A DNA stretch of 46,091 nucleotides from Candidatus Tenebribacter davisii. GTDB lineage: Bacteria; Cloacimonadota; Cloacimonadia; Cloacimonadales; TCS61. Both the position numbers and the translations under genes were made by a program. The notes beneath the pieces are model-generated. The model did not search any database. It saw only the letters and a program-made list of their open reading frames with translations, and was not told where the DNA came from. This document shows, piece after piece, positions 14,198 through 28,411 of the stretch (position 1 is the first letter of the stretch; every line of letters starts with the position of its first letter). The stretch spans positions 1 through 46,091 of the forward strand of contig JAVCCH010000062.1 of the NCBI GenBank assembly GCA_030765535.1. Direction: 5' to 3'.

Positions 14198-15050
14198 GAA
14201 ATATATTAATTACCTCTTTATATTAATTTACAAATCAAACTTGGCTTAATTAACCTCAGACGTTGAGATTAGAATGATAGCTCTCCAATCCTTAAGTCAG
14301 ATCTGCTCCTTCGTCGCATTGTTAACTCAAGTCTGCTTTCTCCGGCAGCTGCCGGATCTGGCAAACTCGTGTTTATTGACCCGATCTCTCACACTCTCTT
14401 TTTATACTGGTTATCTTTAAACTTAAAATTCCATTTCATACCATTATCAGTATCGTATCTAATCTGACCTCCTAACTGATATTTTATAAGAGAAAAAACG
14501 GTTTTAATTCCCATGGTCTCTGTCTTTTCCAGATCAACTTCTTTTGGTATTCCAACCCCATTATCACCCAATAAAAGGTTAATTGTATCATCTTTTTCTT
14601 TGAATAAGCGTACTGAGATCTCACCTTTTGCATTATTTGGGAAAGCATGCTTGAACACATTTGTTATCAACTCACTTAAGATCAAACCTAAAGGAATAGC
14701 AGAATCAATTAATATGAATACATCTTCCAATTCAAGCTTCAATTTTATTTTTTCCGATCTGATATTGTAACTACCCATTAACTGTCTAACAAGATCTTCT
14801 ATATACTCTTTCAGATTTATATGAGACAAATCCTTTGCTTTATACAGTTTTTCGTGAACCAAACTCATCGACTTGATCTTATTGGCGACTACAGTATACG
14901 AATCATGAAGCAAATTAATTCCAACATTTTCGGTTAAGGATCTTTTCTCCATGTTTTGTGCTTCTAATTTGAGCAATGAAATTATCAATTGCATATTATT
15001 TTTTGTTCGGTGATAAATTTCTTGAAGAAGTATGTTTTTTTCTGTCAGGT
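14190..15050. repeat. Direct repeat A, copy 2
   Basis: The second copy of the block at 11108-11975. It includes the last 207 codons of the SBP-kinase gene and about 200 bases downstream, with the REP-like element and the palindrome conserved. Its far end coincides with the PAS-tail remnant. Confidence 0.85.
14341..14356. repeat. Perfect 16-base palindrome, copy 2
   Basis: Identical to the palindrome at 11269-11284 (TCCGGCAGCTGCCGGA), 33 bases past the stop of the SBP-kinase gene. Confidence 0.55.
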
Positions 15051-17790
15051 TTATTTTTAATTGTTTATCAGATTGTATATGTTTGATTGAGAGAGCTATT
15101 TCTTCTGAGATAAAGTTAAGAAGTGTAATATCTTTTTCAGAATACAGGTTTGGATCATCATAACTTTGAACTGCGATTACGCCAATAATTTCATTCTCTA
15201 CTTTAAGTGGGACACCTAACCAGATTAGAGCAGGAGTTCCAATAATCTCAACTTTATTCTCTTTAATCAGCTTTTTTAATAGTTTCTCATCAACAAGTAT
15301 AGATTTACCTGTTTTTAAAACTAATTCTGTCAACGTCTTACCAGCCGGGAAAGTTTCATAATTATCTTTTTCATCTACATCGAAAGGAAGATAGATCATG
15401 TCAGTTTTTTTATTATATAAAGCGATATAGAAATTGGTAGTGTCTATCACGTTTCCCAAAAAATCTCTTATCTTGCTGTAAAGGTCATGCAAATTGTCTA
15501 CTGTATTTACCGCATTGGAAATGTTGAATAATGTTTTTTGTATTTTTTCTGCATGCTTACGCTCATTAATTTCTAAATGCAATTTCTTTGAAGTTTTATT
15601 GAGGTCAGATAAAATAGATAAAGTAGCAATTCTTTGTCTTTCGCTTTTTTCAAAATGCTTTTCCATTTTTTTTGAATTCTCTTTATTTTCTTCTTCCGCT
15701 TTCTTGCGCTCGGTGATGTCACGATCAACCCCGATAAAACCAATTATTTCTTTGTTAAGATCAACTTGAGGTAAGGCAGAACTCTCAAGATAAATGTAAA
15801 TTCCGTCTTTATTACGCCAACGTGTTACAATATTGTTCCACCCAGATTTGTTATGAATAGCTTGTTTATAGATCTCTATGAACATATTTTGATCTTCAGG
15901 GTGCACTAATTCGATTGTGTCCATATTACAAATTTTACTGGAGGAAAATCCTAAGATTTTCTTACAAACATTATTGCTGTAAATATGTTTTCCCTTTAGA
16001 TTCATTTCCCAGATCCAATCGCTTGAGGTTTCTACTAAAGAGCGATATTTTTGTTCGCTATCTGTAAGTGCATTCTCTGCTATTTTACGCTCACTAATAT
16101 CACGAACCATTGCAAGTCTTCCAATAACATTACCATTAATATCAAAAAGATTTGATACATTTAACTCGACTGGTATTTTGCTACCATTTTTATGTAGGAT
16201 TTCAATTTCATAAAGAGGCATCTTTTTACCAGTAAGGCCTTTTTTAAAGCTCTCAATAGATAACTCAACAAATTCTGGAACTATTAATTCTATAAAAGGA
16301 TGACCCAGGAAATGTTTCCAGTTAAAACCTGTTATTCTTTTAGATGCTGGACTAATGTAAGTAAAATTCCCTTCCATATCTAAAGTGATAATTATATCAG
16401 AAGATGTTTCAGCAAGTGCACGATATTTATTTTCACTTTCTTTTAATTCTTTCTCCAGTTGTTTGTGCTCGGTAATATCATTAATGAGTCCTTGCCAGAG
16501 AAAAACTCCATCTTCTCTCTTGAACGAATTGAACAAGGCACGAACCCATCTTATATTCGATTCATCGATTATTAAACGATATTCAAAATCTAAGTTTTTA
16601 TTGGATTGAAAAGCTTTTAAAGATGCTTCATCCAGTGCTTTAAAATCTTCTTCCGGTATTAGTTTGAAATATTCATTTTGATCTTCATATATTTTTTTTG
16701 CTAATTCTTCTCCTACGATCTTTTCCATACCAGGTCCCTGGTAAATGTACTCACGATGTCCATCCGGATGCCATTGATATATAGACACTACACCGGGTAC
16801 ATTCTCTGCAAATAATTTGAATTTTTCTTCGCTTTTTACTAAAGTTTTTTCAGTGATTTTCCTTTTCGCGATATCTTCTTCCAATTCACTGGTGCGTTTC
16901 CTGATAAGTTTTTTCAGTATCCCGTTCCAAGTGTAAATGATTATAAATCCAACAAAACTTAAACATATTATAGAGATTAAGATAAGCCAGAATTGTTTGT
17001 TACTGAAAATCGATTTATTTTTTATTGTAATCCATTTTTTGATTATTGCTTCTTTTTTGTTCGTTGGAATATTTGAAAGAGTTTTTTGAATTATAGTTCC
17101 TAACATAGGCCAGTCTTTACGGGTTAGAATGGATAATTTTGTATAATATCCTGTTTCTCCTGTTACTCGCAGATTCAGTATACCATCTTTCTCAATATAA
17201 TAAAGAGCAATTGGTAACGTTGCTATAATTACATCATGCATACCCATGGAAATATCTCGAAGTCCATCCTGTAGAGAATTCACTTGAACAATTTCTATCT
17301 TAGGATGATGAAGCGTTAACATATCTTGCCACACATATCCTGATACAATTACAACTTTCTTATTATGCAGATGTTCGATCGTTTTGATTTCAGTATAGTC
17401 ATTTCTGGTTATTATCACACCCGGAAAAATCAAGTATGGTGAAGAAAAATCCATATATTCGGCTCTTTGTGGTGTTTGTGCTGCAGCAGATAACATATCA
17501 ACATCTCGATCTCTAGCCTTTTGCAGAACTTCTTCCCAATTGCTACACTTAACAACTTCAAACTTTATATCCAATTCCTGCGAAATTAAATCCATGAATT
17601 CCGTGGAAATCCCTTGATATAAACCGTTTTCATCTATCCATTCTATGGGAGTAAATTCAGGATCGGGTGCAATCCTAATGATTTTATGATTTGAGAGCCA
17701 CCCTCTTTCTTCATTAGTTAGATTTGTATTCGCAGCACGGGCAAATCCCGATATAATCAATATTACAGTAATAAATAATAATTTTTTCAT
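14389..17790 (-). CDS. Membrane sensor kinase: SBP_bac_3-TM-PAS-PAS-PAS-GAF-HisKA_2-HATPase
   Basis: A 1133-residue sensor kinase. A signal sequence (about 1-20) leads a periplasmic solute-binding domain of the SBP_bac_3 type (about 25-265; IAPDPEFTPIEW, DVDMLSAAAQTPQRAEYMDF). One membrane segment follows at about 268-292. Inside the cell come three PAS domains (about 320-440, 448-570, 575-695), a coiled region, a GAF domain (about 745-900) and HisKA_2 (YHRTKNN) with an ATPase domain of the same type as the 885-residue kinase. The SBP domain suggests sensing of an amino acid or similar small solute. The start is the ATG at 17790 with AAAGG upstream; a GTG three codons earlier would overlap that site. 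PAS1-PAS2 are near-copies of those in the 723-residue protein. Confidence 0.9.
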   Translation of the reverse strand: MKKLLFITVILIISGFARAANTNLTNEERGWLSNHKIIRIAPDPEFTPIEWIDENGLYQGISTEFMDLISQELDIKFEVVKCSNWEEVLQKARDRDVDMLSAAAQTPQRAEYMDFSSPYLIFPGVIITRNDYTEIKTIEHLHNKKVVIVSGYVWQDMLTLHHPKIEIVQVNSLQDGLRDISMGMHDVIIATLPIALYYIEKDGILNLRVTGETGYYTKLSILTRKDWPMLGTIIQKTLSNIPTNKKEAIIKKWITIKNKSIFSNKQFWLILISIICLSFVGFIIIYTWNGILKKLIRKRTSELEEDIAKRKITEKTLVKSEEKFKLFAENVPGVVSIYQWHPDGHREYIYQGPGMEKIVGEELAKKIYEDQNEYFKLIPEEDFKALDEASLKAFQSNKNLDFEYRLIIDESNIRWVRALFNSFKREDGVFLWQGLINDITEHKQLEKELKESENKYRALAETSSDIIITLDMEGNFTYISPASKRITGFNWKHFLGHPFIELIVPEFVELSIESFKKGLTGKKMPLYEIEILHKNGSKIPVELNVSNLFDINGNVIGRLAMVRDISERKIAENALTDSEQKYRSLVETSSDWIWEMNLKGKHIYSNNVCKKILGFSSSKICNMDTIELVHPEDQNMFIEIYKQAIHNKSGWNNIVTRWRNKDGIYIYLESSALPQVDLNKEIIGFIGVDRDITERKKAEEENKENSKKMEKHFEKSERQRIATLSILSDLNKTSKKLHLEINERKHAEKIQKTLFNISNAVNTVDNLHDLYSKIRDFLGNVIDTTNFYIALYNKKTDMIYLPFDVDEKDNYETFPAGKTLTELVLKTGKSILVDEKLLKKLIKENKVEIIGTPALIWLGVPLKVENEIIGVIAVQSYDDPNLYSEKDITLLNFISEEIALSIKHIQSDKQLKINLTEKNILLQEIYHRTKNNMQLIISLLKLEAQNMEKRSLTENVGINLLHDSYTVVANKIKSMSLVHEKLYKAKDLSHINLKEYIEDLVRQLMGSYNIRSEKIKLKLELEDVFILIDSAIPLGLILSELITNVFKHAFPNNAKGEISVRLFKEKDDTINLLLGDNGVGIPKEVDLEKTETMGIKTVFSLIKYQLGGQIRYDTDNGMKWNFKFKDNQYKKRV
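16043..16838. repeat. Direct repeat C, copy 1: PAS1-PAS2 coding block
   Basis: Repeated at 19708-20500 with high nucleotide identity by eye, including long identical runs. It encodes the first two PAS domains of the SBP-kinase. Confidence 0.85.
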
Positions 17791-17810
17791 ATGATTCACC
17801 TTTCAATATT

Positions 17811-17838
17811 ATTATAGTTCAATTTACACAACCCTCAA
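17811..17838 (-). promoter_or_regulatory. Possible promoter of the SBP-kinase gene
   Basis: TTGAGG (17838-17833) and TATAAT (17816-17811) on the minus strand are 16 bases apart, in the 52-base gap before the SBP-kinase ATG. The leader would be only about 14 bases. The adjacent gene may also read through. Confidence 0.4.
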
Positions 17839-17842
17839 GTCT

Positions 17843-18005
17843 TCAATATACGATATCATATTTTGGTTCTTTACCAATTTGTTTGAGTGATTCATTGATT
17901 TCTTTTCTTAATTCATTAATTGTAACTTCTCTATTAACAGAAGCTTCATTAAAGATTTCCAGCTCATTCATTCTCTTCTTCATTTGTTCTTCTGCCTGCT
18001 TGCGC
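17843..18005. repeat. Third copy of the PAS-protein C-terminal tail sequence
   Basis: This encodes the C-terminal coiled tail of the 437-residue protein, ending KYDIVY. It closely matches 14037-14190 and 19220-19375. Confidence 0.8.
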
Positions 18006-19156
18006 TCGGTGACATTCTCAGTAATGGCCATTTCAAATAGTGGCTTTCCCCTTTCATCACGAACAATTTGAGATCTAATGTGAACGTAAACAACGCTTCC
18101 ATTTTTATGTATATATCTCTTATCTAATTCGAAATATCGTATTTTACCATCCGATAAATCTTCATACAATTCTTTATTCTGCGCTTCATCATCAGGGTGT
18201 GAGAATTGATTAAAATGTTTGTGCTGCATTTCTTCCGAGGAATAACCTATCATATTACATACTGCAGGATTCACTTCTATAAATTTACCATTCAGATCCG
18301 TAATGCTAACTCCGATCGGAGATTTATCTATCATTAACCGCAGTTTTTCTTCGCTTTTCTTTAGCTTCAGCTCTATCTGCTTTCGTTCAGTGATATCGGT
18401 CATAAAAGCAAGTCCGCATTTTTCTCCCTCCCAAACAGTGGTTGTAGTTCTCATTTCAACAGGGATTATTTTTCCACTTTTTGCAATCACTTTTCTATGA
18501 TATAAATTAGGCGTTTTTTCACCTTTTATCCGGTTTTTATACATCTTAGCATATTTCTTCAGATCATCCGCTGGTGTTATATCCTTCATTGTTAACTCAA
18601 GCATCTCAAGCTCATTATACTCAATTATATCGCTTAATCTTTTGTTTGCATACCTATGCCGTCCATTTGAATCGGCAATAAGTATTCCATCCGGAGAATT
18701 ATCAAGAACATCCTGAAGGTTTTTTCTAATTTCTTTTAATTGTTTTTCACTTTCTTTCAAATCTTCCTTTGCCTGTTTTCGTTCTATCGCATATAGCACT
18801 ATTCGCACCAGATTATTACTATTCATTTCGCTCTTCGTAATACAGTCCTGCGCGCCTGCTTTAATTGCCTCCAATGCCAGGCTTTTATCATCTATACTGG
18901 CAAGAATCACTACCGGTAATCCCGGAGCATATGAACTAATCTTTTTAAAAGTCTCAAGTCCCTGGCTATCAGGTAATTCCAGGTCGAGTAATATCATCTC
19001 GAATTGCTCTTCGCCCAGTAACTTCAGTGACTTGTCGAGTCTTGCTGAATTTGTAATTGCGAACTCAGCTTTTTTGGTTTCTTTCAGCATTTCCATGATA
19101 ATTCTGGCATCACCTGAATTATTATCTACTAATAATAAGCGTATTTTAGGATTCAT
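17843..19156 (-). CDS. Receiver-PAS-PAS protein with coiled C-terminal tail and no kinase domain
   Basis: A 437-residue cytoplasmic protein. The receiver (1-125) keeps Asp58 (ILLDLELPD) and Lys108. Its metal-site pair is DN (LLLVDNNSGD) instead of two acids, and the conserved Ser/Thr before the loop is Ala86 (VVILAS), so normal phosphorylation switching is doubtful. Two PAS domains follow (about 145-265 and 270-392). The last 45 residues form a charged coiled tail (EIFNEASVNREVTINEL, ending KYDIVY) with no catalytic domain. The tail type is known at the end of other PAS proteins. The ATG at 19156 is preceded by a 63-base leader shared with the 885-residue kinase gene. It may act as an adaptor, or be a kinase that lost its output half. 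Confidence 0.85.
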   Translation of the reverse strand: MNPKIRLLLVDNNSGDARIIMEMLKETKKAEFAITNSARLDKSLKLLGEEQFEMILLDLELPDSQGLETFKKISSYAPGLPVVILASIDDKSLALEAIKAGAQDCITKSEMNSNNLVRIVLYAIERKQAKEDLKESEKQLKEIRKNLQDVLDNSPDGILIADSNGRHRYANKRLSDIIEYNELEMLELTMKDITPADDLKKYAKMYKNRIKGEKTPNLYHRKVIAKSGKIIPVEMRTTTTVWEGEKCGLAFMTDITERKQIELKLKKSEEKLRLMIDKSPIGVSITDLNGKFIEVNPAVCNMIGYSSEEMQHKHFNQFSHPDDEAQNKELYEDLSDGKIRYFELDKRYIHKNGSVVYVHIRSQIVRDERGKPLFEMAITENVTERKQAEEQMKKRMNELEIFNEASVNREVTINELRKEINESLKQIGKEPKYDIVY

Positions 19157-19379
19157 TTCTTACTCCTTGAGTATAAATTAAAATTCCATTTTTATATACT
19201 TATGGTTGAAAACGAGTTTTTAATATACGATATCATATTTTGTTTCTTTACCAATTTGTTTGAGTAACTCATTAATTTCTTTTCTTAATTCATTAATTGT
19301 AACTTCTCTATCAACAGAAGCTTCATTAAAGATTTCCAGCTCATTTATTTTACTTTTCAATTCTTCCTCTGCTTTTTTG
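18744..19379. repeat. Direct repeat B, copy 2
   Basis: Matches 13562-14196. Here the tail at 19220-19375 is still joined to a complete upstream gene, so this copy shows the ancestral arrangement. Confidence 0.85.
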
Positions 19380-21391
19380 AGATCGGTGATATCAAGCATA
19401 GAGACAGCGCTTCTTTTAACGTTTGGAATTACTCCAATAGAGAGAATTGTATTTCTTATGTCTCCTTTTGAATCGATCAACCGAACTTCATATTTATCTG
19501 GAACTGATTCCTTATCTTCATATCTGGATTTTTGACGATTCAACATTATCTGTAAATCTTCTTTATACACAAATTCAGTCCAGCTTTTACCTATTAGTTC
19601 GGATGCAGCAAATCCTGTTATTACCTCACATTCTCTATTTACTTGAACTATAGTTGTTTCTTCGTTCACTATCATAGTAGCTGTCCCGGTGGATTCAAAA
19701 ATAGCACGATATTTTTCTTCACTTTCTGCAAGTGCATTCTCTGCTATTTTACGCTCACTGATATCACGAACCATAGCAAGTCTTCCAATAACATTACCTT
19801 TAATATCAAAAAGATTTGATACATTCAACTCGACAGGTATTTTGCTACCATTTTTATGTAAGATTTCAATTTCATAAAGAGGTATCTTTTTACCAGTAAG
19901 ACCTTTTTTAAAACTCTCAATAGATAACTCAACAAATTCTGGAACTATTAATTCCATAAAAGGACGACCCAAAAAATGTTTCCAGTTAAAACCTGTTATT
20001 TTTTTAGATGCTGGACTAATGTAAGTAAAATTCCCTTCCATATCTAAAGTGATAATTATATCAGAAGATGTTTCAGCAAGTGCACGATATTTATTTTCAC
20101 TTTCTATTAATTCTTTCTCCAATTGTTTGCGCTCGGTAATATCATTAATGAGTCCTTGCCAGAGAAAAACTCCATCTTCTATCTGGAATGCGCTGAACAA
20201 GGCACGAACCCATCTTATATTCGAATCATTAATTGTTAACCGATATTCAAAATCTAAGTTTTTACCAGTATGAAAAGCTTTTAAAGATGCTTCATTCAAT
20301 GCCTTGAGATCATCTTCTGGTATTAGTTTGAAATATTCATTATAATCTTTATATATTTTTTTTGCTAATTCTTCTCCTACGATCTTTTCCATACCAGGTC
20401 CCTGGTAAATATACTCACGATGTTCATCAGAATACCATCTATATATTCGCACTACGCCGGGCACATTCTCTGCAAATAATTTGAATTGTGCTTCACTTTT
20501 TTTTAATTGGGCAGTCTTTTTCACAATCTGGTGTTTCAAAATACGGTTGAAAACGAAGATAATTAATGCAAATGATAACATTAGAGCAATGGTAATTTTT
20601 AACCAAAGGGGGAAAGATGTAATTTTTTCATGTTCACCCAGATATTTATCCATCGATATGTAAAAAATTGAATTTTGATCTTTCTTTAACTTTTTAATAT
20701 GAAAATCAAGTTGTTCAAGATAATATGGTGTTAGTTTTGAATTTATAGAGCAGGCATAATGCATACTTGCTGGTTGGAATATGATTGGTGTTCTTTTTAC
20801 TTTATAATCTTTTTCATGTTTTGCACCAAAATCTTTATTTGTAATTCCAACATCTGCTTCATTATTATTCAAAGCTTCAAATACTTTGACGTAATCATCC
20901 ATTTCGATGATGTCACAGTTTATATCGAATTTGTTAATAAGATCTTTTAATCCTTCAGGTCCTTCAATATTAATACTGTTTTTTAGTCCTGCTATTTTTT
21001 TGCCCTCAATATCAAGTATAGTTTGAAAATTTAATCCTCTTTTTGTGTATAATCTTGTCCAACTAAGGAGAACTGTTTCTTTGTTAAACGAGAATTTATT
21101 TTCTCTAGCAGGAGTTATAGCTACATCAATCATTATGTCGATCTCATTAGTTTCCAATTTCTTCAGACACTGATCCCAAGTTCCATGTACCCATTCGATT
21201 TCCCAATATTCCCGATCTGCTATATGTTTTGTAACATCAGCCCAGAATCCACTCATTTCACCGTTTTCATTAGTATATATCTTGGGTGCATTCTCATAAA
21301 CACCAATTTTTACATGTAATTTTTCTTTTGCTGTTAATGATAAGGTACTTAAGAGAATAAAAAAAAATGTTAGTAAAATTGCTTTTTTCAT
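19220..21391 (-). CDS. Membrane sensor SBP_bac_3-TM-PAS-PAS-PAS with coiled tail and no kinase domain
   Basis: A 723-residue protein. A signal peptide (MKKAILLTFFFILLSTLSL) leads a periplasmic SBP_bac_3 domain (about 25-255; VKIGVYENAPKIY, DIMIDVAITPAREN) and one membrane segment (about 265-290). Three cytoplasmic PAS domains and the same coiled tail as the 437-residue protein follow. PAS1 and PAS2 are near-copies of those in the SBP-kinase, while PAS3 resembles PAS1 of the 885-residue kinase. No histidine kinase, GGDEF or other output domain follows, so it must signal through a partner if it signals at all. The start is placed at 21391, where AAGGAG precedes the ATG and a clean signal peptide begins; a longer reading from 21454 lacks both. 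It heads the island's transcription unit. Confidence 0.87.
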   Translation of the reverse strand: MKKAILLTFFFILLSTLSLTAKEKLHVKIGVYENAPKIYTNENGEMSGFWADVTKHIADREYWEIEWVHGTWDQCLKKLETNEIDIMIDVAITPARENKFSFNKETVLLSWTRLYTKRGLNFQTILDIEGKKIAGLKNSINIEGPEGLKDLINKFDINCDIIEMDDYVKVFEALNNNEADVGITNKDFGAKHEKDYKVKRTPIIFQPASMHYACSINSKLTPYYLEQLDFHIKKLKKDQNSIFYISMDKYLGEHEKITSFPLWLKITIALMLSFALIIFVFNRILKHQIVKKTAQLKKSEAQFKLFAENVPGVVRIYRWYSDEHREYIYQGPGMEKIVGEELAKKIYKDYNEYFKLIPEDDLKALNEASLKAFHTGKNLDFEYRLTINDSNIRWVRALFSAFQIEDGVFLWQGLINDITERKQLEKELIESENKYRALAETSSDIIITLDMEGNFTYISPASKKITGFNWKHFLGRPFMELIVPEFVELSIESFKKGLTGKKIPLYEIEILHKNGSKIPVELNVSNLFDIKGNVIGRLAMVRDISERKIAENALAESEEKYRAIFESTGTATMIVNEETTIVQVNRECEVITGFAASELIGKSWTEFVYKEDLQIMLNRQKSRYEDKESVPDKYEVRLIDSKGDIRNTILSIGVIPNVKRSAVSMLDITDLKKAEEELKSKINELEIFNEASVDREVTINELRKEINELLKQIGKETKYDIVY
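19708..20500. repeat. Direct repeat C, copy 2
   Basis: The second copy of 16043-16838, encoding PAS1-PAS2 of the 723-residue sensor. Confidence 0.85.
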
Positions 21392-21422
21392 TATTTTTCT
21401 CCTTAATTCTACAATTGATATA

Positions 21423-21451
21423 ATAAAAATTATTAACTTTTTACATGTCAA
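21423..21451 (-). promoter_or_regulatory. Predicted promoter of the SBP-PAS sensor gene
   Basis: TTGACA at 21451-21446 (minus strand), 60 bases before the ATG. At a 17-base spacing the -10 region reads TTTTAT. Confidence 0.5.
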
Positions 21452-21602
21452 CAACTTTTACTTACAAGACGGTATTGTATTTATGTAATATGATATTGCT
21501 TCTTTTCAGTTCTCACTTTTCTTCTGTTCCAGGTTCGATATCATTATTCCATTCTTTTTAGTCTTTTTTCATGAGTTCTATATCACTATTCATTTTTAAA
21601 GC

Positions 21603-22359: not shown

Positions 22360-24090
22360 TTAATCTTCAAAGAATGGATTTAAATTCTCAACCTCTTCAG
22401 CTTGGAGTATCTCAAAAACTTCTTCCGGGCTCTTAGATTTTATAATTTGATCTTTTATCTCAGGATGATGACCGAATATTTTGGCAATATTAGCTAAAAT
22501 ATTAAGATGAAGATCATAATTCTTTGTTGGTGTTGCAATGAGTATCATAATATTAACAGGAAGATCATCAATTGAATCAAAGGGTATACCGGTTTTTGAA
22601 ATACCGATTACACCGCGAATTTTAGGTCCTCCATCTATAATAGCATGCGGAATCGCCAGGTTTCCACCAATTCCGGTTGAGATATCTTTTTCTCGTTTAA
22701 TAATCGATCTTTTTAATTCGTTTAAGGATATTTCATGAATTTTGTGAGAACGATGTAAAAAAACTGCCAATTTATCAAGAGCGTCCCATTTGTCTTTTGC
22801 TTTAAGATCAATAGTGATATACTCTTCTTGCAAAAAATCCATTAAACGTATTCTGTTCTTATGGCTCTCACCCGCTTTAATTATTGCTTTTTTTGTGAAT
22901 ATTGGACCCAACAGCTCGTTTATCACTACTGCTGCAAGTACAATTGATGTGATCTGCCCAGAATACTCATGTAGGAAACTACTATTTTCAATCAACAGTA
23001 TTAAACCAATAGCAACCCCAGCTATTGGATAGAGCGAAATCCCAATCCATCTTTTGATCGTTTTTGTTGATCTTGCGATATAAGCACCTAAAGTTGGTGC
23101 TATGGTCTTCCCTATTAACCGTGAGACAATAAGGACTATACCTGCATATCCAGCTGATTTCATAACTCCCAGATCAAAGTGAGTTCCGGCTAGAACAAAG
23201 AACAATGTAAAAACTTCTATTTCTATATCTTTGAAAGCTCCAAAAAAGATTGAACTATATTTTGAATAATTTGTAATAATAATTCCCAGGAAAAGGCATG
23301 ATAAAAGCCCAGACAGGTGTATTAGCTGAGAAGTTCCTACAGTAAGTACAACTGCTAAAATTACCATAGCCAGGAATGAAATCCTGATCTTCCGTTTTTC
23401 AGTAAAATAAATCAGCGTTCCACCCACCGCAATTCCAATAAATGCCGACTCTAAAAGCATTAATAGCGGTTTTGAGATCAAATTAAGTACAGTAATATCA
23501 TGCATTGTACTTTTATAAAATAGATAATTAAACACAGTATAGAATATCAAAATTGTTAATACATTATTTAAAGCTACTACAGCAAGTATCGTTTTAGTGA
23601 ATATACCTTTAGCACGATTTTCACGAATTATATGTAATGTAGAGCCCGGAGCAGTTGTAATGGCTATAGACGCTACCAGTAAGCTTACTTCAAATGACAG
23701 ATGAGCTATTTTATATAAAGAAAAAAATACAATAACCGGTGTGATTATAACATCTGAAAGAGTAATTAAAGTTATTCGTTTCCCGGCACTGCGTAGTTTT
23801 TGGAAATCAATATGACTTCCAATTGAAAGTCCAATAAAACCCAGAGCGAAATTTGTGATAGGAGCTAAAGAGGTAAACGCGCTATCCTGGAAGATATTTA
23901 ATACATAACGCCCCAGTATTACACCTCCGATGATTTGAGCTGTTATGGTGGGAATATGAAGCTTAGAAGCAATTTTTGTAGCGATATAACCTGTTATAAG
24001 CAAAACAGCTAATACTAAAAGTGGATTAGGATGATTTAATAAGGCAGTTTCATGTTGAAGCCATAATTGAATATGCTTCAATATACTCAT
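22360..24090 (-). CDS. Cation:proton antiporter (CPA2-like) fused to a PTS EIIA domain
   Basis: A 576-residue inner-membrane protein. Residues about 20-395 hold roughly a dozen membrane segments of the Na+/H+ exchanger (Kef/CPA2-like) type, including GGVILGRYVL and the half-helix-like GLLSCLFLGIIITNYSK. The C-terminal 160 residues are an EIIA domain of the fructose/nitrogen (PtsN) class, with the phosphorylatable histidine in GGNLAIPHAI and the second conserved histidine in NYDLHLNIL. No NAD-binding RCK domain is present. The fusion suggests control of ion exchange by a phosphotransfer state, though no EI or HPr gene is nearby. The ATG overlaps the miaB stop (ATGA), so translation is coupled. 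Confidence 0.88.
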   Translation of the reverse strand: MSILKHIQLWLQHETALLNHPNPLLVLAVLLITGYIATKIASKLHIPTITAQIIGGVILGRYVLNIFQDSAFTSLAPITNFALGFIGLSIGSHIDFQKLRSAGKRITLITLSDVIITPVIVFFSLYKIAHLSFEVSLLVASIAITTAPGSTLHIIRENRAKGIFTKTILAVVALNNVLTILIFYTVFNYLFYKSTMHDITVLNLISKPLLMLLESAFIGIAVGGTLIYFTEKRKIRISFLAMVILAVVLTVGTSQLIHLSGLLSCLFLGIIITNYSKYSSIFFGAFKDIEIEVFTLFFVLAGTHFDLGVMKSAGYAGIVLIVSRLIGKTIAPTLGAYIARSTKTIKRWIGISLYPIAGVAIGLILLIENSSFLHEYSGQITSIVLAAVVINELLGPIFTKKAIIKAGESHKNRIRLMDFLQEEYITIDLKAKDKWDALDKLAVFLHRSHKIHEISLNELKRSIIKREKDISTGIGGNLAIPHAIIDGGPKIRGVIGISKTGIPFDSIDDLPVNIMILIATPTKNYDLHLNILANIAKIFGHHPEIKDQIIKSKSPEEVFEILQAEEVENLNPFFED

Positions 24091-25388
24091 TTAATTAGTT
24101 CGCCTTTTAATGTCCAGCCAACTGCATCAGTTATTTTTACCTTAACAAATTTGCCAATTAAAGTACTATCCCCGGGGAAAACAGTAATTTTGAAGTCTCT
24201 GCTTTTTCCTGCCATTTCATATTCTGATTTTTTACTGATCTGTTCAACATATATCTCTTTGATCTTACCAATTTGTTCTTTATATTTTTGTGTAGTAATA
24301 TCTTGTTGAAGTTCAATAAGTTTTTTTAATCTCTCCAAGCGTATAGTTTCCGGGATCTGATCTTTGAATTCAGCTGCTTTTGTGCCCGTTCTAGGTGAAT
24401 ATTTAAAGGTAAAGGCATAATCAAATTGGATTTTTTTCATCAGATCATAAGTTCTTTGGAATTGTTCTTCAGTTTCACCCGGAAATCCTGCTATTATGTC
24501 TGTTGTTATAGAAATATCGGGCATTGCTTTTCTTAACTTTTGAGTAATATCATAAAAGTGTTGAGATGTATACCCTCGATTCATCCTGGCGAGTATTTCG
24601 TCATCACCGCTTTGCATTGCCAGATGCAGATGTTCACATACCTTATCTGATTCTGCCATCACCTTTATAACGTCATCTGATAAGTCTTTTGGATGTGATG
24701 TAATAAATCTGATCCGTTTAATAGTTTCAATTTTGTTAACCTTTTTCAAGAGTTCTGCAAAGTTTACATTTTTATAGTGGTAGGAATTTACATTCTGACC
24801 AAGTAAAGAAACATCTTTGAATCCCTTCTTCCCTATCTCAGTGATCTCACTTATAATGTCATCAATTGGTCTACTGCGTTCTCTACCACGTGTATATGGT
24901 ACAATGCAATAAGTGCAGAAATTATTACATCCCCGCATTATTGTTACAAATGCATTGAATTTCCCTGAATGGATCGGATAGATATCTTTATATATTTCAG
25001 CGTCATTCACAATTGTATTGCATTCGAAATCGTTTTCATTATAAAGGCCATTTATAATTGCAGGTAAGTGATTATATTGATCTACACCTACAACAAAATC
25101 AATACTGGAATTCATCTCGTTCAACTGTTTATCAAGACGCTGTGCCATACAGCCAATTACACCAATCTTTAAATCCTTCTTACTGCGTTTTCGACTCATC
25201 TCATTGTTTATACGTCCTAAGACACGATCTTCGGCATGTTGTCTTACAGAGCATGTGTTAAAAATAATTACATCAGCAATATTGATATCTTCTACAATTG
25301 AGAAATGTTCTTTTTTTAAAATTGATGCTACTAGTTCACTGTCAGCTACATTCATCTGGCAGCCATATGTTTCTATATAAATATTCAT
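24087..25388 (-). CDS. miaB: tRNA-2-methylthio-N6-dimethylallyladenosine synthase
   Basis: This radical SAM methylthiotransferase adds the 2-methylthio group to i6A37 of tRNA. It is 433 residues. The N-terminal UPF0004 domain supplies three cysteines for the second cluster (TYGCQMN, FNTCSVR, GCMAQR). The radical SAM motif is RGCNNFCTYCIVPYTRGRE (C-x3-C-x2-C), and a C-terminal TRAM domain (about 370-433) binds tRNA. 'YGCQMN' with 'TRGRERSR' favours MiaB over MtaB or RimO. The ATG at 25388 has AAAGGA upstream. It sits between two EIIA-fused transporters in one operon. Confidence 0.95.
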   Translation of the reverse strand: MNIYIETYGCQMNVADSELVASILKKEHFSIVEDINIADVIIFNTCSVRQHAEDRVLGRINNEMSRKRSKKDLKIGVIGCMAQRLDKQLNEMNSSIDFVVGVDQYNHLPAIINGLYNENDFECNTIVNDAEIYKDIYPIHSGKFNAFVTIMRGCNNFCTYCIVPYTRGRERSRPIDDIISEITEIGKKGFKDVSLLGQNVNSYHYKNVNFAELLKKVNKIETIKRIRFITSHPKDLSDDVIKVMAESDKVCEHLHLAMQSGDDEILARMNRGYTSQHFYDITQKLRKAMPDISITTDIIAGFPGETEEQFQRTYDLMKKIQFDYAFTFKYSPRTGTKAAEFKDQIPETIRLERLKKLIELQQDITTQKYKEQIGKIKEIYVEQISKKSEYEMAGKSRDFKITVFPGDSTLIGKFVKVKITDAVGWTLKGELIK

Positions 25389-25402
25389 TAATAATTTTTC
25401 CT

Positions 25403-27265
25403 TTATTTTCTTCTTCTATCACCTAGTAAAACAAGATCACGTAATGCCTCGATATTTTTTGCTTTTAACCATTTTTTCTCAAAATTTGAGTTTTGTACGA
25501 TCTGAGCAATTGCAGCTAAAGCTTGTAAATGGTAATTACGTTCATCACGTGTACCGGTAATAACAAAAACTGTTGTAACTTTTTTTGCATCATTATTGAA
25601 GTTAATTCCATCTTTGCATCTGGCAAGCAGGATATTAAACTTCTTTTCTCCTTCAATAATAATATGAGGTATTGCCAGAGATTCTGTTAGAACTGTGGAA
25701 CTTTCTGCTTCTCTCTCCAGTATTTTATTATAATAATATTCGCTACTTTTATTAATACTTTTAGAAACATTATCTGCTACAATATGGAAAAATTCTTCTT
25801 TTGTTAATGTTTTATCAATATCAAGAATAATTGCTTTTTCTATAAGTCTATCAAACCTGTCTATATGAAGGTTATCACGTTCACGAATAATTTCTTTCAA
25901 CTCAATATCAAGTGATGTTGTTTCCAGATCTTTAGCTTTGATCTTATTAATCAGCTGCAATAAGGCAGATTCTTTATTAGAGCTAATCCTGCCAAAGAAC
26001 CAATACCAGCTTAATCCCATCAAGATAAAAATAGATGTGATTAACAAAGGCAATCTTCCCATTTCAATAATTATAAATATGTATGCTAAGATAGCTATTA
26101 TTTGTAAGTATGGATATAATGGACTTTTAAATCGTGGTCGGTAATTTTGGATTCCGCTTTCACGCATAATAATTACAGAAATATTTACAAATATAAATAG
26201 TAACAACATCATTGTTGATGCTGTTTTTACAAGAGTTTCCAAAGGCAGGAATATCACTAATATCATAAAAAAACTAGTAAATAATATTGAATTAGTCGGA
26301 GTTTGATGTTTTTTACTTACTTTTCCAAAAAAGGATGGTAGAAGTTTATCACGACTCATTGCCATTGGATTACGTGAAGACGCCATTATTCCGGCATTAG
26401 CTGTAGAAAAGAAAGCCAGCAATGCTGCAAATGAGAGAATATACATTCCGGGTTTTCCGGCAAATATTAGAGCTGCATCACTTATAGGAGTAAGAGAATA
26501 GAGTTTAGGGGATCCTAAAAGAAGCTTATCTCCTAAGATACCTACTGTTACAAAAACTACAATAACATAAAATATTGTTACAATCGTAAAAGCTAAGATC
26601 ATACCTAGAGGTATATTACGTGTAGGATTTTTCACCTCTCCAGCTACACTTGCTATCTTAGTCAATCCACCATAAGAGATAAAGATCAAGCCTGATGTCA
26701 TGAAAAGTGATTTTATATCACCTTTCATAAACACATCAAAATTACGATTATCAATATGTGGAATTCCTTTAACTATATAATATAAAAGTAAAAATAATAA
26801 AGCAATTACCATAGTTGCCTGTAAACGCCCAGTATGCTTTGTACTCGTGATATTTGTAATTGTAAATATTACACAAAAGATAACTGCGACCAACTTTATT
26901 TGAAAAATAGTAATATCCGGATAAATGATAGATGCAAAAGCACCTATCCCAACTAAAGCAAAAGCACTCTTAAAAGCTAAGGAAAACCAGGCAGAAATTC
27001 CAGCTATCGTACCAAAGCCACTTCCCATACTGCGATGGATAAAGAAATAAGTTCCACCTGATTTGGGCATTGCAGTAGCTAATTCAGATTTACTGAACAT
27101 GGAAGGAAGTACAAGTATTCCGGCAAGCAGGTATGCAAGTATAACAGCAGGACCAGATTTATAATAAGCTAATCCTGGTAATATGAATAAACCCGAACTG
27201 ATCATCGCTCCTGCTGCAATACTGAAAACTGATAATAATCCGAGTTCTTTTTTTAATTTTTCCAT
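25403..27265 (-). CDS. APC-family amino acid permease fused to a PTS EIIA domain
   Basis: A 620-residue inner-membrane protein. Residues about 10-430 form a 12-helix amino acid/polyamine/organocation transporter, with the unwound-helix motif AAGAMISSGLFILPG near the N-terminus and ISYGGLTKIASVAGEVKNP in helix 6. The C-terminal part (about 470-620) is an EIIA domain with the phosphohistidine site ESLAIPHII and the second histidine in RNYHLQAL. The substrate cannot be named. No good ribosome site precedes the ATG at 27265. The gene lies 24 bases after the diguanylate cyclase, so coupled expression is likely. It has the same design as the antiporter in this operon. Confidence 0.88.
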   Translation of the reverse strand: MEKLKKELGLLSVFSIAAGAMISSGLFILPGLAYYKSGPAVILAYLLAGILVLPSMFSKSELATAMPKSGGTYFFIHRSMGSGFGTIAGISAWFSLAFKSAFALVGIGAFASIIYPDITIFQIKLVAVIFCVIFTITNITSTKHTGRLQATMVIALLFLLLYYIVKGIPHIDNRNFDVFMKGDIKSLFMTSGLIFISYGGLTKIASVAGEVKNPTRNIPLGMILAFTIVTIFYVIVVFVTVGILGDKLLLGSPKLYSLTPISDAALIFAGKPGMYILSFAALLAFFSTANAGIMASSRNPMAMSRDKLLPSFFGKVSKKHQTPTNSILFTSFFMILVIFLPLETLVKTASTMMLLLFIFVNISVIIMRESGIQNYRPRFKSPLYPYLQIIAILAYIFIIIEMGRLPLLITSIFILMGLSWYWFFGRISSNKESALLQLINKIKAKDLETTSLDIELKEIIRERDNLHIDRFDRLIEKAIILDIDKTLTKEEFFHIVADNVSKSINKSSEYYYNKILEREAESSTVLTESLAIPHIIIEGEKKFNILLARCKDGINFNNDAKKVTTVFVITGTRDERNYHLQALAAIAQIVQNSNFEKKWLKAKNIEALRDLVLLGDRRRK

Positions 27266-27289: not shown

Positions 27290-28411
27290 TTACACAATAA
27301 TTACTTTGTTTTTATTTTTAGTTTTACCTTTGTGCATTGCTTTATCAGCTTTTTTTATTATCTCCATTACTGATGTCTCTTCTTTGTCATACTCAATAAC
27401 ACCAATTGTTGCGGTAAGAGATATTTCTTTATCTTGATAGGTTATTGGAAATTTAGCGATCTGTCCAAGAATTAATTTCGTAACATGAAGAGCTCCCTTA
27501 CTATTTGTTTGCGGAAGGAGCAAGATGAATTCTTCACCACTATAACGTCCTACTATATCTTGTTTTCTTATAAGAGCAACAATTAGATTTGATATTTGTT
27601 TCAAAACAAAATCACCACAATCATGACCATTCTTATCATTAACACTATTAAAGTTATCAAGAGAGATCAAAGCAATTGCGAAAATTTCTTTAGATCTTTC
27701 ATATTTTAATATTTCGTAATCAATTTTTTCTATAATTGCACGACGGTTAGGAAGCTGTGTTAGTGAATCTGTTCTTGTAAGAACATGTAATTTTGAATTA
27801 GATTTTTTCAATTCTTTTTGGGATTTATAAAGTTCAGTTATATCTATTGATAAATTAAAAAGCTCCTGTTTTCCAAATACTGTTTCATATTTATGAAAAC
27901 TGGTAAGTACATTTACAGAAGTTTTATCTTTATGCAAATATTCTGCTTGACCCGATGGGATTTTGATATCGCTATCATATAGATTATCAATATTCTTCAC
28001 AAAATTTTTAAAGGATGAACCAGGGATAATAAGAGATTCGATCATCTTGCCTATTACCTCTTTAGAATTAAATCCATATAATTGTTTAGAAGCGGCATTC
28101 CAATAGGTAATCGTATGATCTTTGGCAATACCAACAATTGCTACACCCGGAAGATCATAAACAATCTTTTCAACCTTCTTTTCATATTCATGCAGTCTAC
28201 AATCAAGATTCGACCATTCATCCAGATCTTCTTTATATTCTCTATGTCTACGATATGTAAAAACAATTAAACAAATACTTAAAACAAAGAAAATTAAAAA
28301 ACATTTAATAATAAGCTTATAATTATAAAAGCCGTATACACCCATCATATTCTGTGAAACTTGAAAAATATTTAATAACAAGATTGAAATTAGAATTATG
28401 ACAGCAATCAC
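27290..28411 (-). CDS. Membrane diguanylate cyclase with PAS domain (GGDEF)
   Basis: This protein makes the second messenger cyclic di-GMP. From the GTG at 28411 it is 373 residues. Two membrane segments (about 1-17 and 30-50) come first, then a PAS domain (about 85-190) and a GGDEF domain (about 205-373). The active-site loop reads RYSGEEF, with Ser for the first Gly, a variant found in some active enzymes. The inhibitory RxxD site (RKQD) lies five residues before it. The GTG has no ribosome site. The frame stays open for 26 more codons to an ATT at 28487-28489, four bases after GGAGG, so the protein may really begin at an AUU codon. A 12-codon frame (28523-28485) ends across that ATT. First gene of the transporter/miaB operon. 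Confidence 0.88.
   Translation of the reverse strand: MIAVIILISILLLNIFQVSQNMMGVYGFYNYKLIIKCFLIFFVLSICLIVFTYRRHREYKEDLDEWSNLDCRLHEYEKKVEKIVYDLPGVAIVGIAKDHTITYWNAASKQLYGFNSKEVIGKMIESLIIPGSSFKNFVKNIDNLYDSDIKIPSGQAEYLHKDKTSVNVLTSFHKYETVFGKQELFNLSIDITELYKSQKELKKSNSKLHVLTRTDSLTQLPNRRAIIEKIDYEILKYERSKEIFAIALISLDNFNSVNDKNGHDCGDFVLKQISNLIVALIRKQDIVGRYSGEEFILLLPQTNSKGALHVTKLILGQIAKFPITYQDKEISLTATIGVIEYDKEETSVMEIIKKADKAMHKGKTKNKNKVIIV

Follow-up and report, generated by a model that had tools for sequence, protein, structure and literature searches.

Why would two unrelated membrane transporters encoded in one gene row each end in an EIIA domain of the phosphotransferase system (PTS)? The question arises from a stretch of 46,091 nucleotides of Candidatus Tenebribacter davisii (phylum Cloacimonadota), here called the window, which encodes an APC-family amino-acid permease and a membrane protein of the cation/proton antiporter (CPA) fold on either side of miaB (Table 1). 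An earlier note, made from the letters alone, had described this pair, and the open reading frames and Pfam agreed with its description. A regulatory phosphotransferase relay without a sugar permease probably acts through both proteins, with each tethered EIIA gating its own transport domain. The CPA-fold protein carries two asparagines (NN) where ion exchangers of this fold bind their ion.

Both C-terminal domains were assigned to PTS EIIA of the fructose/mannitol/Ntr class by their PF00359 scores, which were 93–99 bits in the genome search and 88.2 and 95.6 bits in hmmscan against a curated cut-off of 27. The phosphohistidine motif LAIPH and a second histidine, which had already been noticed in each, correspond to H534 and H579 of the permease and to H482 and H528 of the CPA-fold protein. 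H534 aligned with residue 65 of EIIA-Mtl (1A3A), presumably its phosphohistidine, and H482 with the matching phosphohistidine of PtsN (1A6J). Both histidines were invariant in 63/63 permease-EIIA sequences and in 21/21 CPA-EIIA rows (20 genomes), at mean EIIA identities to the window copy of ~56% and ~68%, respectively. The permease set is drawn from part of the matching loci and holds only matches that begin by residue 200 and reach residue 600 or beyond.

No EI, HPr or sugar EIIBC had been seen near the pair, and for this contig that was correct. Genes for EI, HPr and HPr kinase/phosphorylase (HprK) were found on another contig of the same genome (C164) in the order hprK-ptsH-ptsI, with HprK directly upstream and EI directly downstream of HPr. 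HPr contained the motifs GMHARPA at the H15-type His site and NGKS at the S46-type Ser site, and EI contained the active-site sequence SHSSIIAR. The gene row around ptsH was: kdsA, kdsC, lpt genes, rpoN, lpd, lipA, hpf, hprK, ptsH, ptsI, and metK; most of these names, including rpoN, were read from translated starts rather than from a domain scan. EI, HPr and HprK thus stand near rpoN, as in a regulatory PTS. By Pfam the EI comprised three phosphoenolpyruvate (PEP)-utiliser domains and no GAF, so the system is not a PTSNtr in the strict sense, which has an EI-Ntr with an N-terminal GAF. A PF05524 search of the genome found no second EI copy. The earlier note had named the absence of any phosphodonor, together with non-conserved histidines in orthologues, as the outcome that would speak against phosphotransfer; the donor chain was present and the histidines were conserved in the orthologues examined.

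Across the phylum, HPr was found in 114 of 124 Cloacimonadota genomes (67 of the 70 near-complete ones) and EIIA_2 in 124 of 124. PTS_EIIC (PF02378) was found in none of the 124, a search that covered this EIIC class and not the others (mannose, ascorbate etc.) and that gave matches in seven of 14 control genomes. Because of these three counts, the Cloacimonadota phosphorelay looks purely regulatory, without a sugar permease. A comparable arrangement, with a regulatory EI (EI-R) and an rpoN-ptsK-ptsI-ptsO-ptsN cluster, was described by Comas and colleagues in Proteobacteria, Chlorobia, Chlamydiales, Planctomycetes and Leptospira, mostly without PTS transporters (PMC2405797). The likeness lies in EI, HPr and HprK near rpoN and not in a placement in the EI-R tree; the difference is that the outputs here include EIIAs fused to, or encoded beside, transporters.

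The near universality of HPr in the phylum and the invariance of the EIIA histidines at the identities given above both argue against the view that the domains have lost phosphorylation and persist as vestiges or for a structural role. That explanation was considered very unlikely. In its favor are an Asn at the first histidine of two Myxococcota homologues (L206 and L207) and a permease linker and C-terminal region that seems exchangeable, since the haloarchaeal plasmid matches described below mostly cover the permease part.

In the relay as proposed, Enzyme I would take phosphate from PEP and hand it to HPr, and HPr~P would phosphorylate the tethered EIIAs at H534 of the permease and H482 of the CPA-fold protein. 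The phosphorylation state of each EIIA would alter its docking on its own membrane domain, opening or closing the transporter, while HPr kinase/phosphorylase, acting at Ser46, would set the share of HPr able to serve as donor. Candidate signals may be PEP/pyruvate, or ATP and phosphate via HprK. We infer phosphorylation, gating and the direction of gating from these genes and from two known systems, which lend credibility to the idea that a tethered EIIA can gate a transporter. The first is the E. coli K+/H+ antiporter YcgO (CvrA), which unphosphorylated PtsN (EIIANtr) is described as binding and inhibiting (PMC11808508). There, whether the EIIA, a member of the same family, is phosphorylated determines how active a CPA-fold transporter is, as would be the case here, and by analogy an unphosphorylated EIIA would be expected to restrain its transporter until phosphorylation lifts the restraint. 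In the YcgO system the EIIA is free and binds the C-terminal domain, whereas here it is fused; YcgO is also an active K+/H+ antiporter (CPA1), whereas the Asp dyad is NN here. The second is LacS of Streptococcus thermophilus, in which HPr(His~P) is described as phosphorylating a fused IIA domain and so regulating transport (PMC10703360). Both cases join a non-PTS secondary transporter to a C-terminal IIA; LacS is a sugar carrier, whereas here an EIIA_2 sits on an APC permease in a phylum in which no PTS_EIIC was found. The LacS domain is of the IIA-Glc type, which has another fold.

The two fusions of the window are real, and they account for two of the seven EIIA_2 domains in the genome. Of the other five, one stood alone (148 amino acids), one followed an HTH_17 domain, and three belonged to proteins of 272–278 amino acids, each encoded next to a Na_H_Exchanger gene. 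These three proteins (L012:5861-6685, L013:4330-5166 and L014:4153-4971) contained ~120 extra C-terminal residues to which Pfam gave no name and which are perhaps a ligand-binding or docking module. The HTH_17 protein (L011:8491-9162), whose C-terminal EIIA has the active-site motif ALLHP instead of AIPH, might regulate transcription as a member of this relay. A tree of 55 EIIA domains, which has several long branches, revealed three clades: permease EIIAs (support 99/96), fused-CPA EIIAs of both Cloacimonadota and Myxococcota (91/77), and C13/C216-type EIIAs encoded beside antiporters (94/91). Because the EIIAs of the permease and of the CPA-fold protein fall in separate clades, the two proteins do not appear to descend from a common EIIA acquisition, and the domain was recruited independently by each.

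The CPA-fold protein had been called a cation/proton antiporter, and the fold stood. Its AlphaFold model (mean pLDDT 83.4) matched NapA (5bz2) over the membrane domain with a Z score of 39.9, 375 aligned residues, a root mean square deviation of 3.2 and 17% identity, and it also matched PaNhaP and KefC. The ion-binding residues did not stand. In the CPA transport core a dyad of residues binds the ion: DD in NapA, ND in PaNhaP, and QD in KefC. The profile alignment placed N175-N176 over the DD of NapA; with PaNhaP, N176 was the residue matched to the Asp of ND. The window protein thus shares the fold of these exchangers and differs from them in the dyad and in its tail, which is an EIIA here and RCK or another tail there. 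The genome's three remaining antiporters had DD at the dyad.

The asparagine pair was not peculiar to the window. NN was found in 20/20 readable Cloacimonadota CPA-EIIA fusions (one more was cut off by a contig end), in 32 of 37 Myxococcota fusions, and in the fusion of a single unassigned bacterium. The remaining five Myxococcota fusions had Ile-Asp (four) or Gly-Ser (one, L161). These counts come from a table of unique genomes, and a second CPA-EIIA copy of one genome (G436) lies outside it. Among 30 unfused antiporters compared, the second Asp was kept in 30 and the first in 29. The 30 were chosen by hand rather than at random and comprised genes from 20 regions, further loci, and two antiporters of the own genome; a pair of genes lay in each of two of the 20 regions, in one of which the fused gene was left uncounted. 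One locus (L183) was counted as unfused, as no EIIA motif was present even though the gap rule had flagged a fusion. NN was accompanied by H93 and mostly by H304 (29/32 Myxococcota NN rows), and the NN rows conserved T146-A-P148 of transmembrane helix (TM) 4, R324, and K328 of TM10. The site of the NN family therefore holds lysine, arginine and mostly the histidines, with no acidic dyad. Fused and unfused CPA sequences were split in a tree (SH-aLRT 99) that was built by a quick method with a midpoint root and has long branches, and in which the placement of the Ile-Asp rows is unsure.

Because NN replaces the ion-binding Asp dyad, classical ion exchange by the CPA-EIIA protein is doubtful. The NN protein is probably not a classical cation/proton antiporter, and may instead carry some other substrate or serve as a sensor with little transport. 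Literature on the missing residue points the same way: one paper calls this Asp indispensable in nearly every CPA exchanger investigated (PMC9408914), and another reports no bound K+ and background-like currents for KefC with the D156N change (PMC11150392). The protein could still be a cation/proton antiporter that works through other residues (such as the invariant H93, H304, or the conserved E392), with the EIIA gating ordinary exchange. This was judged unlikely. The intact remainder of the core, the match to NapA, PaNhaP and KefC, and the DD kept by other EIIA-coupled antiporters of the phylum are in keeping with it; the two reports just cited and the incomplete retention of H304 are not. 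A membrane sensor dead for transport, which passes the state of a ligand to its EIIA, or to the relay by titrating HPr~P, was given a somewhat lower chance still. The loss of the ion-binding Asp from a fold that is kept, the fused signaling domain, and the Gly-Ser dyad of L161 would all suit a sensor. Against a sensor, identity to the window copy averaged 0.59 for the membrane core, not far below the 0.68 of the EIIA, and conservation at this level would also suit an active carrier.

The idea that Asp loss accompanies EIIA fusion as such was rejected, as an EIIA-fused antiporter of another genome (L209 in G059) has DD. This protein of 735 amino acids (L209:296-2503) consists of a Na_H_Exchanger domain with DD fused to an EIIA, and is followed by TauE and BtpA genes. 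At a second locus (L208 in G063, 647-2353), a DD CPA part of ~260 residues was in frame with a C101-type EIIA, possibly as the result of an internal deletion or an assembly artefact. Since other EIIA-fused antiporters of the phylum keep DD, NN marks one subfamily and not fusion. The gene context of the Myxococcota CPA-EIIA fusions was scanned in eight of the 37 genomes: TraB/GumN and thymidylate synthase genes were found in three (L192, L193 and L195), and neither was among the scanned neighbors in the other five. This varying context gives no hint of a substrate.

The permease domain had its closest folds in cationic amino-acid transporters, MmCAT1 (9fqw, Z 45.7) and GkApcT (6f34, Z 45.4), and its closest sequences were 5oqt and 6f34. 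Judged by these matches, it would be an APC permease of the cationic-amino-acid-transporter type, from which its substrate is predicted. Relative to its best matches in sequence and fold, the window protein has an added EIIA and a leucine (L156) in place of K191. Leu occupied this position in 62/62 readable permease sequences, so the TM5 lysine is absent from the set. If K191 serves proton coupling in GkApcT-type permeases, the permease with L156 would be coupled differently.

In Myxococcota, three of four scanned relatives of the permease (L202, L204 and L206) were composed of an APC permease, an EIIA and TrkA_C, the C-terminal domain of K+-channel regulators. A plasmid collection contained seven records covering at least 80% of the permease; the best matches listed were haloarchaeal and ended before the end of the EIIA. 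No record in the collection covered at least 80% of the CPA-EIIA protein. The haloarchaeal plasmid matches (H16-H30) mainly comprised the permease core, some of them annotated beside an NAD-binding protein. It looks as though the permease is a chassis on which C-terminal regulators can be swapped.

Overall, the permease was matched at >40% identity in 62 Cloacimonadota genomes and the CPA fusion in 24, and 21 genomes had both (Fisher p 6e-5, relatedness not removed). In 11 of the 24 CPA-fusion genomes, as read from match tables, a single contig carried both fusions within ~3.2 kb, usually with miaB between them. Co-occurrence in the phylum, which had been raised as a check, was thus found in 21 of 24 CPA-fusion genomes; it barely extended to Myxococcota, where the CPA fusion was matched in 37 of 377 genomes and the permease in 53 of 377. 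Outside Cloacimonadota, 38 genomes (Myxococcota or unassigned) had a CPA-EIIA fusion, and HPr was found in 36 of them.

Several observations weigh against a relay that acts through these fusions. HPr was not found in 10/124 Cloacimonadota genomes and in 2/38 genomes outside the phylum, many of them incomplete. Only three Myxococcota genomes were in both lists, and the permease matches there stop short of the EIIA, so joint gating finds no support outside Cloacimonadota. In family f2 the genomes retain EIIA proteins but none matched the permease fusion, which shows that the fusions can be done without. The Asn in L206 and L207 affects two of ten Myxococcota permease-EIIA homologues, so EIIA may act without phosphate in some lineages. 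Ile-Asp occupies the dyad in four Myxococcota proteins of the NN clade, and loss of the second Asp is therefore not uniform in the subfamily. The fusion pair appears to be a habit of Cloacimonadota and not a rule, and joint control of the two transporters, which the shared operon suggests, is not obligatory.

Within the window, the four genes on the minus strand were closely spaced: 24 bases separated the GGDEF gene from the permease gene, 14 bases separated the latter from miaB, and miaB and the CPA gene overlapped by four bases. These short gaps and the overlap suggest a single transcript of the GGDEF, permease-EIIA, miaB and CPA-EIIA genes. The diguanylate cyclase with which the operon had been said to begin does so here. 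Among 30 permease loci, miaB was downstream of the permease in 20 and a GGDEF protein was upstream in 15, which makes the cyclase a frequent and not a constant neighbor. The gene metG is near the operon, and the company of miaB, metG and the diguanylate cyclase does not tell which signal is in control. The donor chain and the histidines support the proposal that amino-acid uptake and ion exchange are gated together as far as phosphotransfer is concerned; ion exchange is doubtful with NN, and a joint physiological signal is suggested by this one operon. Elsewhere in the window, three adjacent PAS-rich sensor proteins (14389-21454, minus strand) shared near-identical stretches that suggest recent duplication, and two of them (14389-17799 and 19220-21454) started with a part that, judged by eye, resembles a solute-binding domain.

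Table 1. Features of the EIIA-fusion locus, with positions in the 46,091-nucleotide window.
Feature	Position	Strand	Basis or remark
PAS-GGDEF diguanylate cyclase	27290..28411	-	active-site motif SGEEF; first gene of presumed operon
APC-family amino-acid permease with C-terminal EIIA, 620 amino acids	25403..27265	-	open reading frame, Pfam, model fold
APC permease membrane domain, residues 1-430	25976..27265	-	AA_permease / AA_permease_2, fold search
L156, aligned with TM5 lysine K191 of GkApcT	26798..26800	-	alignment, codon checked
EIIA_2 domain of permease	25433..25834	-	PF00359, residues 479-611, E 6.6e-25
H534, predicted phosphoacceptor of permease EIIA (LAIPH)	25664..25666	-	alignment, codon checked
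H579, second conserved histidine of permease EIIA	25529..25531	-	alignment, codon checked
miaB (tRNA methylthiotransferase), usual gene between both transporters	24087..25388	-	Pfam MiaB
CPA-fold membrane protein with C-terminal EIIA, 576 amino acids	22360..24090	-	open reading frame, Pfam, model fold
CPA-fold membrane domain, residues 1-405	22876..24090	-	Pfam Na_H_Exchanger, profile, model fold
H93, Glu in 29/30 compared unfused antiporters	23812..23814	-	alignment, codon checked
N175-N176 in place of CPA ion-binding dyad	23563..23568	-	alignments, codons checked
H304, E/N/R/K in compared unfused antiporters	23179..23181	-	alignment, codon checked
EIIA_2 domain of CPA-fold protein	22402..22836	-	PF00359, residues 419-563, E 3.5e-27
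H482, predicted phosphoacceptor of CPA-protein EIIA (LAIPH)	22645..22647	-	alignment, codon checked
H528, second conserved histidine of CPA-protein EIIA	22507..22509	-	alignment, codon checked

In the open-licence literature, no description was found of an EIIA fused to an APC permease or an antiporter, an architecture that domain databases may list, and no paper was found on a Cloacimonetes PTS or an NN CPA subfamily; for the former, the one paper returned concerned another phylum. EI-R was named in a 2008 survey, which states that functional information on the group is lacking (PMC2405797). Part of the answer to what a regulatory PTS without sugar permeases acts on lies in the gene structure described here. 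As the last component of the relay is covalently attached to the transporters, phosphorylation and transport can be tested on single proteins.

A wider reading is put forward tentatively, at slightly less than even confidence. Cloacimonadota and Myxococcota may share a CPA-fold family without ion-binding aspartates that is now under phosphorelay control and either carries a neutral or anionic solute or acts as a membrane receptor. In Cloacimonadota, such a protein and the amino-acid permease may be two outputs, having independently acquired the same switch domain, of a PTS that no longer moves sugar. What the NN subfamily lacks is a residue described in papers as strictly conserved and indispensable across the CPA superfamily. 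Since NN is kept in members of two phyla, the NN protein must act otherwise than by textbook exchange, or achieve exchange by another way. The regulatory PTS itself is of a known kind; set beside the papers searched, what is new in this variant is its covalent transporter outputs and, most of all, the NN subfamily.

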